From: an uncultured Opitutales bacterium
Lineage (GTDB): Bacteria; Verrucomicrobiota; Verrucomicrobiia; Opitutales; Intestinicryptomonadaceae
DNA length: 64,000 bases
Direction: 5' to 3'
NCBI GenBank assembly: GCA_944389885.1
Contig: CALXNZ010000004.1
Span: 1 to 64,000, forward strand
How positions within the stretch are numbered: the stretch's first letter is position 1; each line of letters begins with the position of its first letter. A model generated the notes under the pieces. It had not been told where the DNA came from and made no database searches. It was given only the letters and a program-made list of their open reading frames with translations. The position numbers and the translations under genes were made by a program. This document shows, one piece after another, positions 31,301 through 59,061 of this stretch.

Positions 31301-32573
31301 CGACGAAATTCTCGGAGTCGGAGAATTCACAAGGCGATTCAAGGCGCTTGTAAAATTGCAAATTCCCGAACTTTGGCTGCGCGGGGAAATATCGAATATA
31401 AAACCCTATTCGAGCGGCCATACATATTTCACCATAAAAGACGCCGACGCGTCAATTTCGGCCGTGTTATTCAAAGGATACTCGCGCGGCATCTCATTGG
31501 AACTGCGCGACGGCATGAGGATTCTCGCCTTCGGAGAAATCGGCGTTTACGAAGTGAAGGGAACATATCAAATGGTCGTAAAGGCCATCTTGCCAGATGG
31601 AGTTGGAGATCTTGCCGCGCGCTTTGAGTTGCTTAAAAAAAAGCTTTCCGACGAAGGCCTGTTTGATGTAGGCCGCAAAAGACCAATACCTCAAACTCCG
31701 CGCAGGGTCGCCGTTATAACATCTCCGACAGGAGCCGCAGTGCGGGATTTTTTGAAAATATTGCGGCGCCGGGCATGGAAAGGGGAGGTGTATGTTCTGC
31801 CATCTCGCGTACAGGGCGAGGGTTCGGCCGGAGAGGTGGTAGATAAGATACGTTTTGCCCAAGATTATGTATTTGAAGACGGTGGAAGTTTTGACCTGCT
31901 GGTTATAACGCGGGGAGGCGGAAGCATAGAGGATCTCTGGACGTTTAACGAGGAATGTGTGGCAAGAGCCGTGGCCTCTTGCTCCATTCCGACTATTTCG
32001 GCCGTAGGGCATGAAATAGATTTCACCTTGTGCGATTTCGCCGCCGACTTGCGCGCCGAAACCCCCAGCGCAGCCGCAGAACTCATATCGAGCTCCGCGA
32101 TAGAACTGCGCGAACGCCTGCTTCGGAACGAAGCGGACTTGCGCAACTCGGCTTTTTGCATCTTGGATAATTTGCGCCGCAAATTGGAATCCTATTCAAA
32201 TATGCTGTCGCTGCACGCCCCTGATGGGAAAATAAATTCAATGCGCATAATGTTGGACGAACTTGAGAGCAGGATAGATTTGTCGGTGCATAAAAACGTG
32301 TCGCATTTGAAATCTAAAATATCCGATTTTCTCTTGAATCTCTCAAAATATTCTCCCGCTAATAAAATCGGCTCATACAGGGAATATTTGCTTTCAATGG
32401 AAAAGCAGTTGGAAATTCTAAATCCTGAAAATACTTTGAAGCGCGGGTTTGCAATGGCCTTCGATAAAGCCGGCAAAAGGATTGTAAGCGCAAAGTCCGC
32501 ATCCTCTAATAAATCTTTACTTCTGCGCTTCAGGGACGGGGAAGTTGGCGCAAGGGTCGGGGAAACTTCATAG
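31281..32573 (+). CDS. xseA: Exodeoxyribonuclease VII large subunit
   Basis: 430 residues. An N-terminal OB-fold (LWLRGEISNIKPYSSGHTYF in parts) precedes the nuclease domain with ITSPTGAAVRDFL, LPSRVQGEGSA, ITRGGGSIEDLW and SAVGHEIDFTLCDFAADLRAETPSAAAE. A coiled-coil region and the closing GFA stretch follow. It degrades single-stranded DNA together with XseB, for which no gene is visible downstream. Last gene of the mqn operon. Confidence 0.96.
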   Translation: MGFLKSSDEILGVGEFTRRFKALVKLQIPELWLRGEISNIKPYSSGHTYFTIKDADASISAVLFKGYSRGISLELRDGMRILAFGEIGVYEVKGTYQMVVKAILPDGVGDLAARFELLKKKLSDEGLFDVGRKRPIPQTPRRVAVITSPTGAAVRDFLKILRRRAWKGEVYVLPSRVQGEGSAGEVVDKIRFAQDYVFEDGGSFDLLVITRGGGSIEDLWTFNEECVARAVASCSIPTISAVGHEIDFTLCDFAADLRAETPSAAAELISSSAIELRERLLRNEADLRNSAFCILDNLRRKLESYSNMLSLHAPDGKINSMRIMLDELESRIDLSVHKNVSHLKSKISDFLLNLSKYSPANKIGSYREYLLSMEKQLEILNPENTLKRGFAMAFDKAGKRIVSAKSASSNKSLLLRFRDGEVGARVGETS

Positions 32574-32713
32574 CCCTATGCGGTCGCGACGAAATGCCGC
32601 TCTTGCCCTTAATTTATAAGTTATTTATATTTAAATTATTATACCTATAAAACGCGAGCGTTCACTACGGGCTAAAATATCCGGTTTTACGCGTGTATTT
32701 ATGTCGTTTTGCT

Positions 32714-32740
32714 ATTGACATGTACACTTTGATTGTCAAT
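32714..32740 (+). promoter_or_regulatory. TTGACA-containing inverted repeat upstream of PEP-CTERM gene
   Basis: ATTGACA at 32714-32720 and TGTCAAT at 32734-32740 form a 7-bp inverted repeat with a 13-base spacer. The left arm could be a -35 box, though no good -10 follows. The region 32574-32803 is AT-rich and otherwise shows nothing I can name. Confidence 0.35.
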
Positions 32741-32840
32741 GCCATTTAACGTTAGGGACATGTTATGTATGTCGAAATAGTAAATCTCTAATAAATAGTA
32801 ATTATGGAAAGTATTTAAATATTTAATCATAACTTCTCTA

Positions 32841-34553
32841 TTGGCTGTCACTGCGACATATGCTGATATTACATACGATATTACCACCAGCGAGCTTGGA
32901 GGAAATGAAATTGTTTTTGCCGAGAACGATTTAACGCTTACGGTGGATAATAATTATAGTACATGGAATATTACGGCGACTGACTCCTCTATAAACCATG
33001 CAAGCATATATATACAAGAAGGAGGCTCCCTTACAGTAGGCATAACCGGACGCTTCTCTTGGAATCCATATGCAGGATCGGGTTTGATTGAATTTAACGG
33101 ATATGGCGGGGCCACCACTAATTTTACGACTACAAGCGAGTACAATTCCGATCTTAACGGAACTCTCGTGGACGGGAAACTTTCGACCACAGTCGCATTC
33201 AATACGGATTTCATATACGGCAGATCGGTTGCCCCTGCGGAGGGCAATTGGCCGAACAGTTATTTGCGTATTCGCGATATAGCGGTGGAATTTAACAAAA
33301 ATGTTTCATTTTTAGAGGATTCTTACGGGCCATTGTCCCTATATGTTTCGGAATCGTCATCAAATATAGCTTCCGTGACCTTTGGAAAAGCGGGAGATTC
33401 GGAAAAATATACCGGTAATATCAATGGCAGTCTCATTGGAAAATTAAATTCTACTATAACCGTAAATAATTACACTTTGAATGTGGGGGTGTTTAATAAC
33501 AATTACGATAACGCCATTGTAGTATTGAATGATAACGCTCTCTTAAACGCAAATTCTGCCGATATAAAAAACTGCGATGTAAATTCCGGAGCTTCTATGA
33601 ACGTGGTCGGGCAGACGCGAATATACGGCACCTTAAACGTCGCCGGCTCATTTATATCGGAATCCAATCCCGACGATACCTCTAAAGTAAGCGTTATAGA
33701 CGGTATTGTAAACATAAAAGAAGGCGGATTGATGAAGATAGGCGGCAGTGCGAGTACGGAGATTGTGCATACAGCCCAGGTAAACATTAACGGCACAATG
33801 GTTCAAACCGGCAACTGGAATGTTTGGGATACGGCGGTCATAAATGTGTTTGAAGGCGGCTCCCTAAAATCCGAAGGCGACTCCAAAATATCAATTTTTG
33901 CAAGCACCGTACTTAATTTTTACGGCATTACGGACCTTAACGGGATATATTCTCCACAAAAGGGAAATTGCACTATAAATGTCTTGGGTGGAAATTCAAA
34001 AATTGGAGATCTCTCCGTAAAACTGAATTCAAGTTTATTGGTGAGCGATGGCACGATTTCTATCGGTAATATAGAGGTTCTTTCCACTGCAAAACAATTC
34101 CGTATCGAGGGCGGGACCCTCGAAATCGGAGGATTATACAATACGGGCATAAATAAGAACCTCTCGGTTGGCGGAGGCAGGTTGTCCGTCAATGCCCCCG
34201 AACTTATCCTTACAGGCTTGGACTTCGACAACGGCGCCTTGCTTGAGATAGCTCTCGGCTCAAATACTTTGATTGTAAATTCCATAAACGGACAGGATAT
34301 TTCAATAAACTTCGTGGGAACTTCATGGATGGAAAATTCGTTTTTTATAAGCGAAATAACTGAATCTGCTTTGAAGGATATAAACTTTACATTCAACGGT
34401 TCTTCCGAAGGTTTGGAATATCTGGCCATGTCAAATGGATACTTTGTCAATTTTAACGGCGTTATACCGGAACCTTCCTACTGTGCGGCGGTATTGGGCG
34501 TGGCGGCTGTAGCCTTTGCCATGCGCCGCAAGCGCTCTGGAAAAAAATTCTGA
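32841..34553 (+). CDS. PEP-CTERM autotransporter-like surface protein with frameshifted signal peptide
   Basis: A repetitive, strand-rich protein of about 570 residues, full of Asn, Gly and Ser like a beta-helix adhesin. It ends in a PEP-CTERM signal (PEPSYCAAV, hydrophobic helix, RRKRSGKK). The first in-frame start after a stop is a TTG at 32841, inside what is clearly a signal peptide. An ATG at 32804 is followed by GAA AGT ATT TAA. Removing one G would give ATG AAA GTA and a textbook signal peptide joined to this frame. So the gene carries a 1-base insertion near 32806, a sequencing error, or an unusual start. A terminator follows. Confidence 0.8.
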   Translation: MAVTATYADITYDITTSELGGNEIVFAENDLTLTVDNNYSTWNITATDSSINHASIYIQEGGSLTVGITGRFSWNPYAGSGLIEFNGYGGATTNFTTTSEYNSDLNGTLVDGKLSTTVAFNTDFIYGRSVAPAEGNWPNSYLRIRDIAVEFNKNVSFLEDSYGPLSLYVSESSSNIASVTFGKAGDSEKYTGNINGSLIGKLNSTITVNNYTLNVGVFNNNYDNAIVVLNDNALLNANSADIKNCDVNSGASMNVVGQTRIYGTLNVAGSFISESNPDDTSKVSVIDGIVNIKEGGLMKIGGSASTEIVHTAQVNINGTMVQTGNWNVWDTAVINVFEGGSLKSEGDSKISIFASTVLNFYGITDLNGIYSPQKGNCTINVLGGNSKIGDLSVKLNSSLLVSDGTISIGNIEVLSTAKQFRIEGGTLEIGGLYNTGINKNLSVGGGRLSVNAPELILTGLDFDNGALLEIALGSNTLIVNSINGQDISINFVGTSWMENSFFISEITESALKDINFTFNGSSEGLEYLAMSNGYFVNFNGVIPEPSYCAAVLGVAAVAFAMRRKRSGKKF

Positions 34554-34591
34554 TTCCAACATTTGAATATTGGAGACTTACCATAAATTAA

Positions 34592-34622
34592 AAAAAACGC
34601 GGAAATTTTCCGCGTTTTTTTT
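34592..34622. terminator. Bidirectional terminator between PEP-CTERM gene and lutC
   Basis: AAAAAACGCGGAAA pairs with TTTCCGCGTTTTTT, giving an A run on one side and a T run on the other. It can end both converging transcripts. Confidence 0.9.
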
Positions 34623-34624
34623 AC

Positions 34625-38503: not shown

Positions 38504-38773
38504 ATGAGCGATTCATTAGGAATGATAGAAACGCGCGGATTCACCGGCTGCGTTGAAGCCAGCGACGCCATGGTAAAAGCTGCGGACGTGGAATTCGTCA
38601 AGCAGGTTCAAATAGGCGGAGGCTATGTGACAGTAGTCGTAAAAGGAGACGTAGGCAGCGTAAAGGCGGCTGTTGAAGCCGGGAAACAGGCGGCTCAAGC
38701 CGTGGGAGAGTTGGTGAGCGCAAATATCATCGCGCGCCCGCATCCGATGCTTCTGGAAAAAATGGGACTCTAA
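38504..38773 (+). CDS. BMC-H shell protein 1
   Basis: An 89-residue single-domain hexameric shell protein (PduA/EutM/CcmK family). It has GMIETRGFTG at the start, the pore-loop sequence QIGGGYV, GDVGSVKAAVEAG and IIARPHPML at the end. A ribosome site AAAGG precedes the start. One of three hexamer paralogues in this operon. Confidence 0.96.
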   Translation: MSDSLGMIETRGFTGCVEASDAMVKAADVEFVKQVQIGGGYVTVVVKGDVGSVKAAVEAGKQAAQAVGELVSANIIARPHPMLLEKMGL

Positions 38774-38796
38774 TATTAGAAAGGATTTCTACTGAT

Positions 38797-39066
38797 ATGA
38801 AAAAAGCTTTGGCAATGATTGAGACAAAAGGATTTGTGACCGCCATGGAGGCCGCAGACGCCGCAATGAAAGCCGCAGCCGTTGAACTTTTGGGCTGGAG
38901 AAAAGTGGGTTCCGGTTTGGTCGCCGTGTTCTTCTCGGGCGATGTGGCTTCGGCTAAGGCAGCTGTTGAAGCAGGCTCAGAGGCCGCCGGAAAAGTCGGG
39001 GAAGTCACGTCTGTGGACGTAATAGCCCGCCCCCACGACGATCTCACTAAACTCGGCTGCTTCTAA
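38797..39066 (+). CDS. BMC-H shell protein 2
   Basis: An 89-residue hexameric shell protein with AMIETKGFVTAMEAADAAMKA, the pore loop KVGSGLV (like PduA), GDVASAKAAVEAG and VIARPHDDL. AGAAAGGA precedes the start. It differs from its neighbour mainly in the pore loop and in a more hydrophobic strand (VAVFF). Confidence 0.96.
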   Translation: MKKALAMIETKGFVTAMEAADAAMKAAAVELLGWRKVGSGLVAVFFSGDVASAKAAVEAGSEAAGKVGEVTSVDVIARPHDDLTKLGCF

Positions 39067-57684: not shown

Positions 57685-59061
57685 ATGAAGAACGCGTATT
57701 CAAAGATTTTTTCTTATGTGGCCATAGCGCTCGCCCTTATGGCATTATCGGGATTGGCTGAGGCAAGCCCGACATATTCCGTGCGTGTTGACGGGGTCAT
57801 TTCTTCGCCGCAGCTTTCCATAATTAAGCGCGCGATAAGGGCTGCAAACTCCGACGGCGCAAAAGTCCTCATTCTGGACATGAACACTCCGGGGGGGGAT
57901 TTGGATACAACTCTTAAAATAATGGACGCCCTGTCGAATTTTAACGGCAAAACCGTGTGCTATGTAAATTCGGACGCGATAAGCGCGGGCTCGTTTATTG
58001 CTTGCGCTTGCGACGAAATATGGTTTTCTCCGCGGGGCGTTATGGGAGCGGCGGAGGCTGTCACTATGACGGGAGGCGATATCGACAATTCAATGCGCAG
58101 GAAGCTGACGTCGTTTTTAGGGGCAAAAGTGCGCGCCGCAAATTCCGACAATTCGCGCAGATCCGATGTGCAACGGGCGATGAACGACCCCGATTTCGTA
58201 TTCAAAATCGGCGACAGGACAATAAAAAATAAGGGCGAACTCTTGAGCCTTACCGCGGCGGAGGCTGTTGAAAAAATAAACGGAATACCGCTTTTGGCAA
58301 ACGGTATCGCCGAAAATATAGAGCAATTAGCGGAAAAATTGACGGAAAATTCCAAAGATTCTGAATTGAAAAAATTGAAGATAACTTGGGCGGAATCTTG
58401 CGCAAAATATATGTCATCATTGTCTCCCCTAATTTTGGGCGTTGCTTTTTTCTTAGTGTTTATAGATATAAAATCGGGAAGCCTCGGATTATTTTCCATT
58501 GTAGGAGTGGTTCTGGCATTGATTGTTTTTGTAGGGGCGAATATGTCGGGCTTGGCGGGATACGAGGCGTTCCTTGTTTTTATATTGGGGGCATTCCTGC
58601 TCTTTGGAGAGTTGTTCTTCTTTCCCGGAGTTGTCATACCAGCGCTAATCGGTTGCGTATTGATGGTAGGCTCTTTGATATGGGCCCTCGGAGATGTTTG
58701 GTTGCCGCGCGGATTGGAGTATAATATGCATGGAATTCTCATCGCAGCAGGCAAGGTAATGGGGGGAATAGTTATCGCGGTTTTAGCGCTCTTGGCTTTC
58801 GGAAGATTTTTGGCCTCCAAATCCGCATGGAGGGGGTTCGTGTTAAGTTCGGTCCAAACCGGAGCATCTCCCAGCGAAATTGTCGCGGAAATCCACGTAG
58901 GCGACAAGGGCGTTGCGGAAACACCCTTGTCCCCAAGCGGAAGAATACGCGTGAACGGAATCATCGCAGACGCGACGTCGGTTTTCGGCCCGATAGCTTC
59001 CGGAGATAAAATAGAAATCGTGGCTAAAAAAGATTTTTATTTTATTGTAAAAAAATCGTGA
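57685..59061 (+). CDS. NfeD-family membrane-bound ClpP-class serine protease
   Basis: 458 residues: a signal-peptide-like N-terminus, then a ClpP-class protease domain with DMNTPGGDLDTTLKIMDAL and a Ser nucleophile in DAISAGSFIACACDEI, then four or five membrane helices (about 255-385) and a C-terminal NfeD OB-fold. Such proteins occur with flotillins (as here) and process membrane proteins. The start at 57685 begins the signal sequence; the frame extends back to 57655. It heads the NfeD-NfeD-flotillin operon. Confidence 0.92.
   Translation: MKNAYSKIFSYVAIALALMALSGLAEASPTYSVRVDGVISSPQLSIIKRAIRAANSDGAKVLILDMNTPGGDLDTTLKIMDALSNFNGKTVCYVNSDAISAGSFIACACDEIWFSPRGVMGAAEAVTMTGGDIDNSMRRKLTSFLGAKVRAANSDNSRRSDVQRAMNDPDFVFKIGDRTIKNKGELLSLTAAEAVEKINGIPLLANGIAENIEQLAEKLTENSKDSELKKLKITWAESCAKYMSSLSPLILGVAFFLVFIDIKSGSLGLFSIVGVVLALIVFVGANMSGLAGYEAFLVFILGAFLLFGELFFFPGVVIPALIGCVLMVGSLIWALGDVWLPRGLEYNMHGILIAAGKVMGGIVIAVLALLAFGRFLASKSAWRGFVLSSVQTGASPSEIVAEIHVGDKGVAETPLSPSGRIRVNGIIADATSVFGPIASGDKIEIVAKKDFYFIVKKS

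Follow-up and report, generated by a model that had tools for sequence, protein, structure and literature searches.

A PEP-CTERM surface-protein gene probably silenced by a one-base frame change at its start codon in an uncultured Opitutales bacterium

Introduction

How is a gene to be read when its signal peptide and its long body are open in one frame and the ATG in front of them lies in another? Such a gene is found in a 64,000-nucleotide stretch of DNA from an uncultured Opitutales bacterium (contig CALXNZ010000004.1; this whole stretch is called the window here). The gene may be broken in the cell, it may be intact and wrongly assembled, it may be translated in an unusual way, or it may be caught in one state of a reversible switch. 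We have weighed these readings against the bases themselves, the other genes of the same family in the genome and the corresponding genes of species of the same genus.

The protein belongs to the PEP-CTERM class. The PEP-CTERM/exosortase (EpsH) system was presented by Haft et al. (2006; PMC1569441), who describe how paralogues expanded rapidly and find signal peptides in 97% of cases after re-analysis of start sites; the word 'frameshift' is absent from the main text of that paper. The genes studied here share with the system as described there the signal peptide, the PEP motif, the hydrophobic helix and the basic tail, as well as many dissimilar paralogues per genome, and the genome of the window has two exosortase-family genes. 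The window gene differs in that its signal peptide has no in-frame start codon.

Genomes and scoring

The genome of the window is denoted G000, whereas G001, G003, G004, G008 and G009 are genomes of the same genus; loci carry L numbers and contigs C numbers. A PEP-CTERM gene was scored as broken when its frame had no ATG with a signal peptide. Run at permissive thresholds, the Pfam model PF07589 gave matches, none of them above its cut-off, in 13 of 14 (E up to 10) and 6 of 14 control genomes, and PEP-CTERM matches were therefore accepted by the sequence of the C-terminal tail.

Results

The ATG at 32804-32806 is followed by GAA AGT ATT TAA, a four-codon frame on the + strand (32804..32818) that reads Met-Glu-Ser-Ile-stop, with the stop at 32816-32818, exactly as the initial annotation had it. 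One base further on, the frame from 32805 reads W-KVFKYLIITSLLAVTATYA-DITYDITT... and stays open up to the stop at 34551-34553, where the product ends in IPEPSYCAAVLGVAAVAFAMRRKRSGKKF. This open frame (32802..34553, + strand; 583 codons plus stop, coding score 114 bits) encodes a PEP-CTERM surface protein. The signal peptide, KVFKYLIITSLLAVTATYA at 32808..32864 on the same strand, was called by eye, not by a predictor, from its charged n-region, hydrophobic core and A-x-A-like end. It is indeed continuous with the long protein, as had been proposed; the 570 residues given at the time are the count from the TTG at 32841.

Directly behind the in-frame stop at 32799-32801 the codons of the protein frame are TTA TGG AAA GTA TTT AAA TAT TTA ATC ATA ACT TCT CTA, and then comes the TTG at 32841..32843 (+ strand). 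This listing holds no ATG, GTG or TTG between the stop and that TTG, in agreement with the earlier remark that neither ATG nor GTG precedes a TTG located in the hydrophobic core. The TTG is thus the first start-type codon in frame, and translation from it would leave out the charged n-region and the greater part of the hydrophobic core; no ATG is reached in frame before codon 265, the opening codon of the frame being numbered 0. A signal peptide is therefore encoded, with none of the three start codons ahead of it in frame, and we call the gene a disrupted member of the PEP-CTERM class because its signal peptide lacks an in-frame start codon.

Comparison with the intact members of the family in the same genome indicates where translation presumably began. 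Among the 29 G000 PEP-CTERM genes that are intact, 20 have AAA as their second codon, and in the window gene AAA comes after the displaced ATG; for this reason the ATG at 32804, presumably shifted out of frame by one base, is the likely original start. We judge the AAA at the displaced ATG to be more than chance, on the strength of the family comparison rather than of a formal chance estimate. A TTGACA that resembles a -35 box and may act as one lies 89 nt 5' of the ATG (32715..32720, + strand). Of the 29 intact genes, 22 have a TTGAC in the 110 nt that precede their ATG, at distances of 36-80 nt, to be set beside the 89 nt of the window gene, and a consensus promoter scan gave no promoter-like site beginning at the TTGACA at 32715.

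The remainder of the gene is well preserved. Its sorting tail at 34464..34532 (+ strand) has the PEP motif, the hydrophobic transmembrane helix and the basic cluster at the end; the assignment goes by motif and by agreement with the other G000 tails, PF07589 giving 13.7 bits (E 0.29) against a cut-off of 20.7. No NCBIfam model matched the protein, and the Pfam G8 domain reached 18 bits in its body, below the cut-off of 22.9. The exosortase that such a tail calls for is represented in G000 by two PF09721 proteins (139.1 and 58.5 bits, cut-off 25.7). Although the reading frame is disrupted, as in a pseudogene, no second lesion was found across the 583 codons. A single lesion over this length fits a very young pseudogene, and it also fits an intact gene in which one base was miscalled. 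On the 3' side of the gene a terminator-like hairpin (34589..34623) was reported on the - strand, with A and T runs on both sides of the stem-loop; since one hairpin was found against 2.0 expected in shuffled sequence, it is no evidence by itself.

Upstream of the gene lies what we take to be xseA, and downstream, on the opposite strand, what is presumably a lutC-like gene, both names being given on the basis of the translations. When 53 other genomes of the genus, family and order were searched, 8 gave matches to the window protein, all of them in the C-terminal part. Pattern scans of the genome contigs and plasmids for the gene gave no match. Nine same-genus xseA loci were inspected, and in the eight with 1.5 kb beyond xseA in view no PEP-CTERM frame occupies the slot after it; the ninth (L095) is cut by a contig end. 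Hence no orthologue of the window gene was found in the genomes, contigs, plasmids and xseA slots searched. As a separate observation, locus L252 of G008 is a PEP-CTERM gene with its signal peptide and tail in different frames; the N-terminus of its mature part (ADITYDIT) resembles the window protein by eye, and it is not among the best 40 tblastn matches.

The window gene is not the only broken member of the family in its genome. At E up to 10 we collected 35 PEP-CTERM tails in G000, of which 4 exceed the PF07589 cut-off; C4:427, with its tail at a contig edge, was left out of the 35. (The window itself opens, at 1-531, with a PEP-CTERM tail that is cut by the contig edge and has no visible start.) An in-frame ATG with a signal peptide is present in 29 of the 35 genes and missing in the other 6, the window gene included. 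The five broken paralogues carry lesions of various kinds: an in-frame TGA where the close paralogue L053 reads Trp (C9:34.6 kb), an in-frame TAG together with QEP instead of PEP (C22:8.3 kb), a TAA directly before the signal peptide and another TAA inside the gene (C2:236.3 kb), several lesions comprising stop and frame changes (C10:56.9 kb), and a mere remnant of the tail (C2:72.0 kb). Recoding of a stop codon was considered for these genes and ruled out: TAA, TAG and TGA all interrupt paralogues, so that recoding of any one stop does not explain them.

The ordinary genes of the window served as a control. Coding signal was found in 54 stretches, comprising the PEP-CTERM tail at the contig edge, the window gene and 52 others. 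In 51 of these 52 an ATG lies close to where the coding signal sets in, in the remaining one (38677-39063) the ATG is at codon 40, and none was flagged by this coarse test. When the window gene is omitted, 5 of 34 PEP-CTERM genes versus 0 of 52 ordinary stretches gives 0.008 in a one-sided Fisher test, in which the control is coarser and weaker than the PEP-CTERM test because a chance ATG can satisfy it.

These counts bear on the main rival reading, namely that the gene is intact and that one base was miscalled in sequencing or assembly. In its favour, a single break affects a frame that is open over all its 583 codons otherwise, the assembly is a draft (27 contigs), and the gene is known from one assembled sequence. 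However, the absence of any flagged ordinary gene speaks against a high assembly error rate: over some 60 kb of coding sequence in the window, the coarse test flags no further break. Moreover, the site is GG and not a homopolymer, and the nonsense lesions of the paralogues are untypical of indel errors. We therefore regard an error as less likely than a real lesion and, on the whole, unlikely. The initial annotation had named such an error as one reading and a recent inactivating insertion as another. Its inactivating lesion gains support from the five other G000 PEP-CTERM genes broken by different lesions and from the unflagged ordinary genes, whereas 'insertion' is left unconfirmed, as no orthologue was found that would give the change a direction or a date.

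In some species of the genus broken PEP-CTERM genes are frequent, and in another none was seen. In G004 all 48 genes have an ATG and a signal peptide (49 matches at E up to 1, from which L161, NuoK-like by eye, was dropped); with 0 of 48 broken, decay does not hold throughout the genus. In G001, 12 of 58 genes are without an ATG and signal peptide, the 58 being left of 60 matches after removal of L171 (NuoK-like by eye) and L221 (match away from the frame end), and the 12 including L188, an uncertain case with no ATG seen in 250 codons. Two of the G001 genes appear to be affected in the start codon itself: we read ATA-AAA before the signal peptide of L170, most of whose body is missing, and ACG-AAA before that of L192, where ATG-AAA would be expected in both. 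These codons could be lost or weak starts. A third gene, L174, has a TAG in the signal peptide, a fourth, L200, has its ATG and body in different frames on account of a poly-C tract, and others among the 12 are short tails. Among genes with their start in view, 3 of 9 are broken in G003 (13 matches in all) and 1 of 13 in G008 (20 matches in all). For G009, where 30 of 42 matches were fetched and no broken count was drawn up, L262, L264, L265 and L286 are without an in-frame ATG and signal peptide of their own. By eye, lesions at the start codon recur in the window gene, L112, L170 and L192, a pattern for which the survey was not planned.

The protein might nevertheless still be made. Translation could begin at a non-standard codon (ATC 32826, ATA 32829 or the TTG at 32841), it could reinitiate after the stop at 32816, or ribosomes could shift into the +1 frame within Met-Glu-Ser-Ile. 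The intact body of the gene is in line with this, and so is the position of the TTG, 22 nt past the stop; the ATA of L170 and the ACG of L192, too, could be weak starts in use. Against it, the alternative starts, being located within the signal peptide, would forfeit the charged n-region, and the 29 intact G000 genes and 48 G004 genes all have an in-frame ATG. We know of no slippery site or stimulator that can be recognised at the start of the window gene, and judge programmed frameshifting to be a weak proposition. Continued translation is, in our assessment, improbable.

Another reading, also put forward in the initial annotation, is that of a phase switch, in which a base is reversibly gained and lost or an inversion of the DNA moves the start. 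The motives for entertaining it come from relatives: some PEP-CTERM genes of sister species have a homopolymer tract in the promoter or where the gene starts, and for Akkermansia the published account of invertons (PMC11892184) places some of them next to PEP-CTERM genes, that is, the same kind of surface protein is there under reversible control. At the window gene itself no such device was found. The only homopolymer at its start is GG, no tandem repeat was found near the start, no G or C run of at least 8 occurs in the PEP-CTERM stretches fetched from G000, and no TTGAC-N(4-14)-G8 site exists anywhere in that genome. A search of 32400-33100 for inverted repeats with arms of at least 10 nt gave a single separated pair, of 10 bp and consisting of A and T alone. 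Inversion between its arms was rejected as a switch: the flipped piece would put a TAA before the TTT at 32814, next to the signal peptide, and no start-giving inversion was found, in which the gene differs from the Akkermansia cases. We found, then, neither a repeat or homopolymer at the break or in a promoter spacer nor, within 32400-33100, an invertible segment with a promoter or start, and a phase switch at this gene is very improbable. In the window a single G or C run reaches 8 bases or more (57891-57898); it is in a Pro-Gly-Gly stretch of an NfeD-family protein and looks like plain coding sequence.

The tracts of the sister species are better candidates for phase switching than the window gene. 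The pattern TTGAC-N(4-14)-G8 gave 41 rows in G009, which correspond to 29 distinct sites when counted by hand, and 29 of the 37 G8 tracts of that genome (22 + 15) are in such sites. The reversed pattern, used as a control, gave none in G009 and one row each in G003, G006 and G013. At 28 of the 29 sites a TA---T/C hexamer stands directly behind the tract, with spacers of 17 nt (1 site), 18 nt (12) or 19 nt (15) and tracts of 8 G (6 sites), 9 G (12) or 10 G (10). A complete PEP-CTERM gene is in view behind 22 of the 28, and at the remaining 6 the gene extends past the end of the stretch or contig; the twenty-ninth site (L298) differs in its hexamer and is followed by a PEP-CTERM gene. Thus, a shared promoter-like sequence, TTGACA-N(8-10)-G(8-10)-TAGCAT-like, precedes at least 22 PEP-CTERM genes of G009 (site loci L266, L271, L272, L274, L276, L277, L279, L280, L282, L283, L295, L298 and L305-L320). 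This makes G009 exceptional, as the 12 other genomes of the genus (besides G009 and G000) have at most three such sites, seven having one to three and five none. The poly-G spacers are candidates for phase variation through promoter spacing, in which tract length would change in the cell.

Tracts of other kinds occur in two further genomes. G001 L174 and G003 L229 have a tract of 16 G behind TTGACT. Just after the ATG, within the signal peptide, G001 L200 has a C11 tract that separates the frames of ATG and body, and G003 L232 a C23 tract with the body out of frame; from their sequence these poly-C tracts are candidate translational phase switches. For the genomes as a whole, G8 tracts number 67 in G003 versus 4 in G004 and 11 in G000, several of those seen in G003 being 15-23 bases long.

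Discussion

Considering the evidence together, we hold it probable that the window gene carries a real and young frameshift, which silences one member of a fast-decaying PEP-CTERM family. In this scenario a one-base change of frame at the start codon would have silenced the gene recently. Ribosomes starting at the ATG at 32804 would stop after four residues and, because no usable start (ATG, GTG or TTG) precedes the signal peptide in frame, the protein would not be exported, while the rest of the gene would not yet have decayed. Three points we infer from the sequence: the cell really carries the change, the change arose recently, and production of the protein has ceased. The loss would then be an instance of the birth and death that genes in a large and fast-changing family ordinarily undergo.

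Homopolymer phase variation is known from porA of Neisseria. The PEP-CTERM loci of G001, G003 and G009 resemble such systems in that the frame or the promoter spacer hangs on a mononucleotide tract, whereas the window gene differs from them in having no tract. For Akkermansia muciniphila homopolymer phase variation was proposed, and long tracts are reported in 17 genes (PMC3048395); as the text names two of these, both capsule genes, PEP-CTERM genes may be among the other 15. Searches of the openly licensed literature, judged by titles and the beginnings of abstracts, turned up no paper on poly-G-spacer promoters of PEP-CTERM genes. What we have seen in print that comes nearest to the G009 promoters are these homopolymer tracts (PMC3048395) and, as far as that account goes, the invertons near PEP-CTERM genes (PMC11892184).

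A wider reading may be offered tentatively, and with more doubt than confidence. The PEP-CTERM proteins of the genus might form a switchable repertoire that is set at the front of the gene: through poly-G promoter spacers in G009, through poly-C signal peptides in G001 and G003, and through loss of the start in the lineages that have no tracts, the window gene in that case being off for good.

Taken alone, the window gene is an ordinary broken gene, and its value is that of a pointer. The PEP-CTERM proteins form a large class at the cell surface whose function is little known, and the data suggest that the repertoire displayed by these bacteria is set by frequent loss and, in the sister species, perhaps also by switching through tract length.
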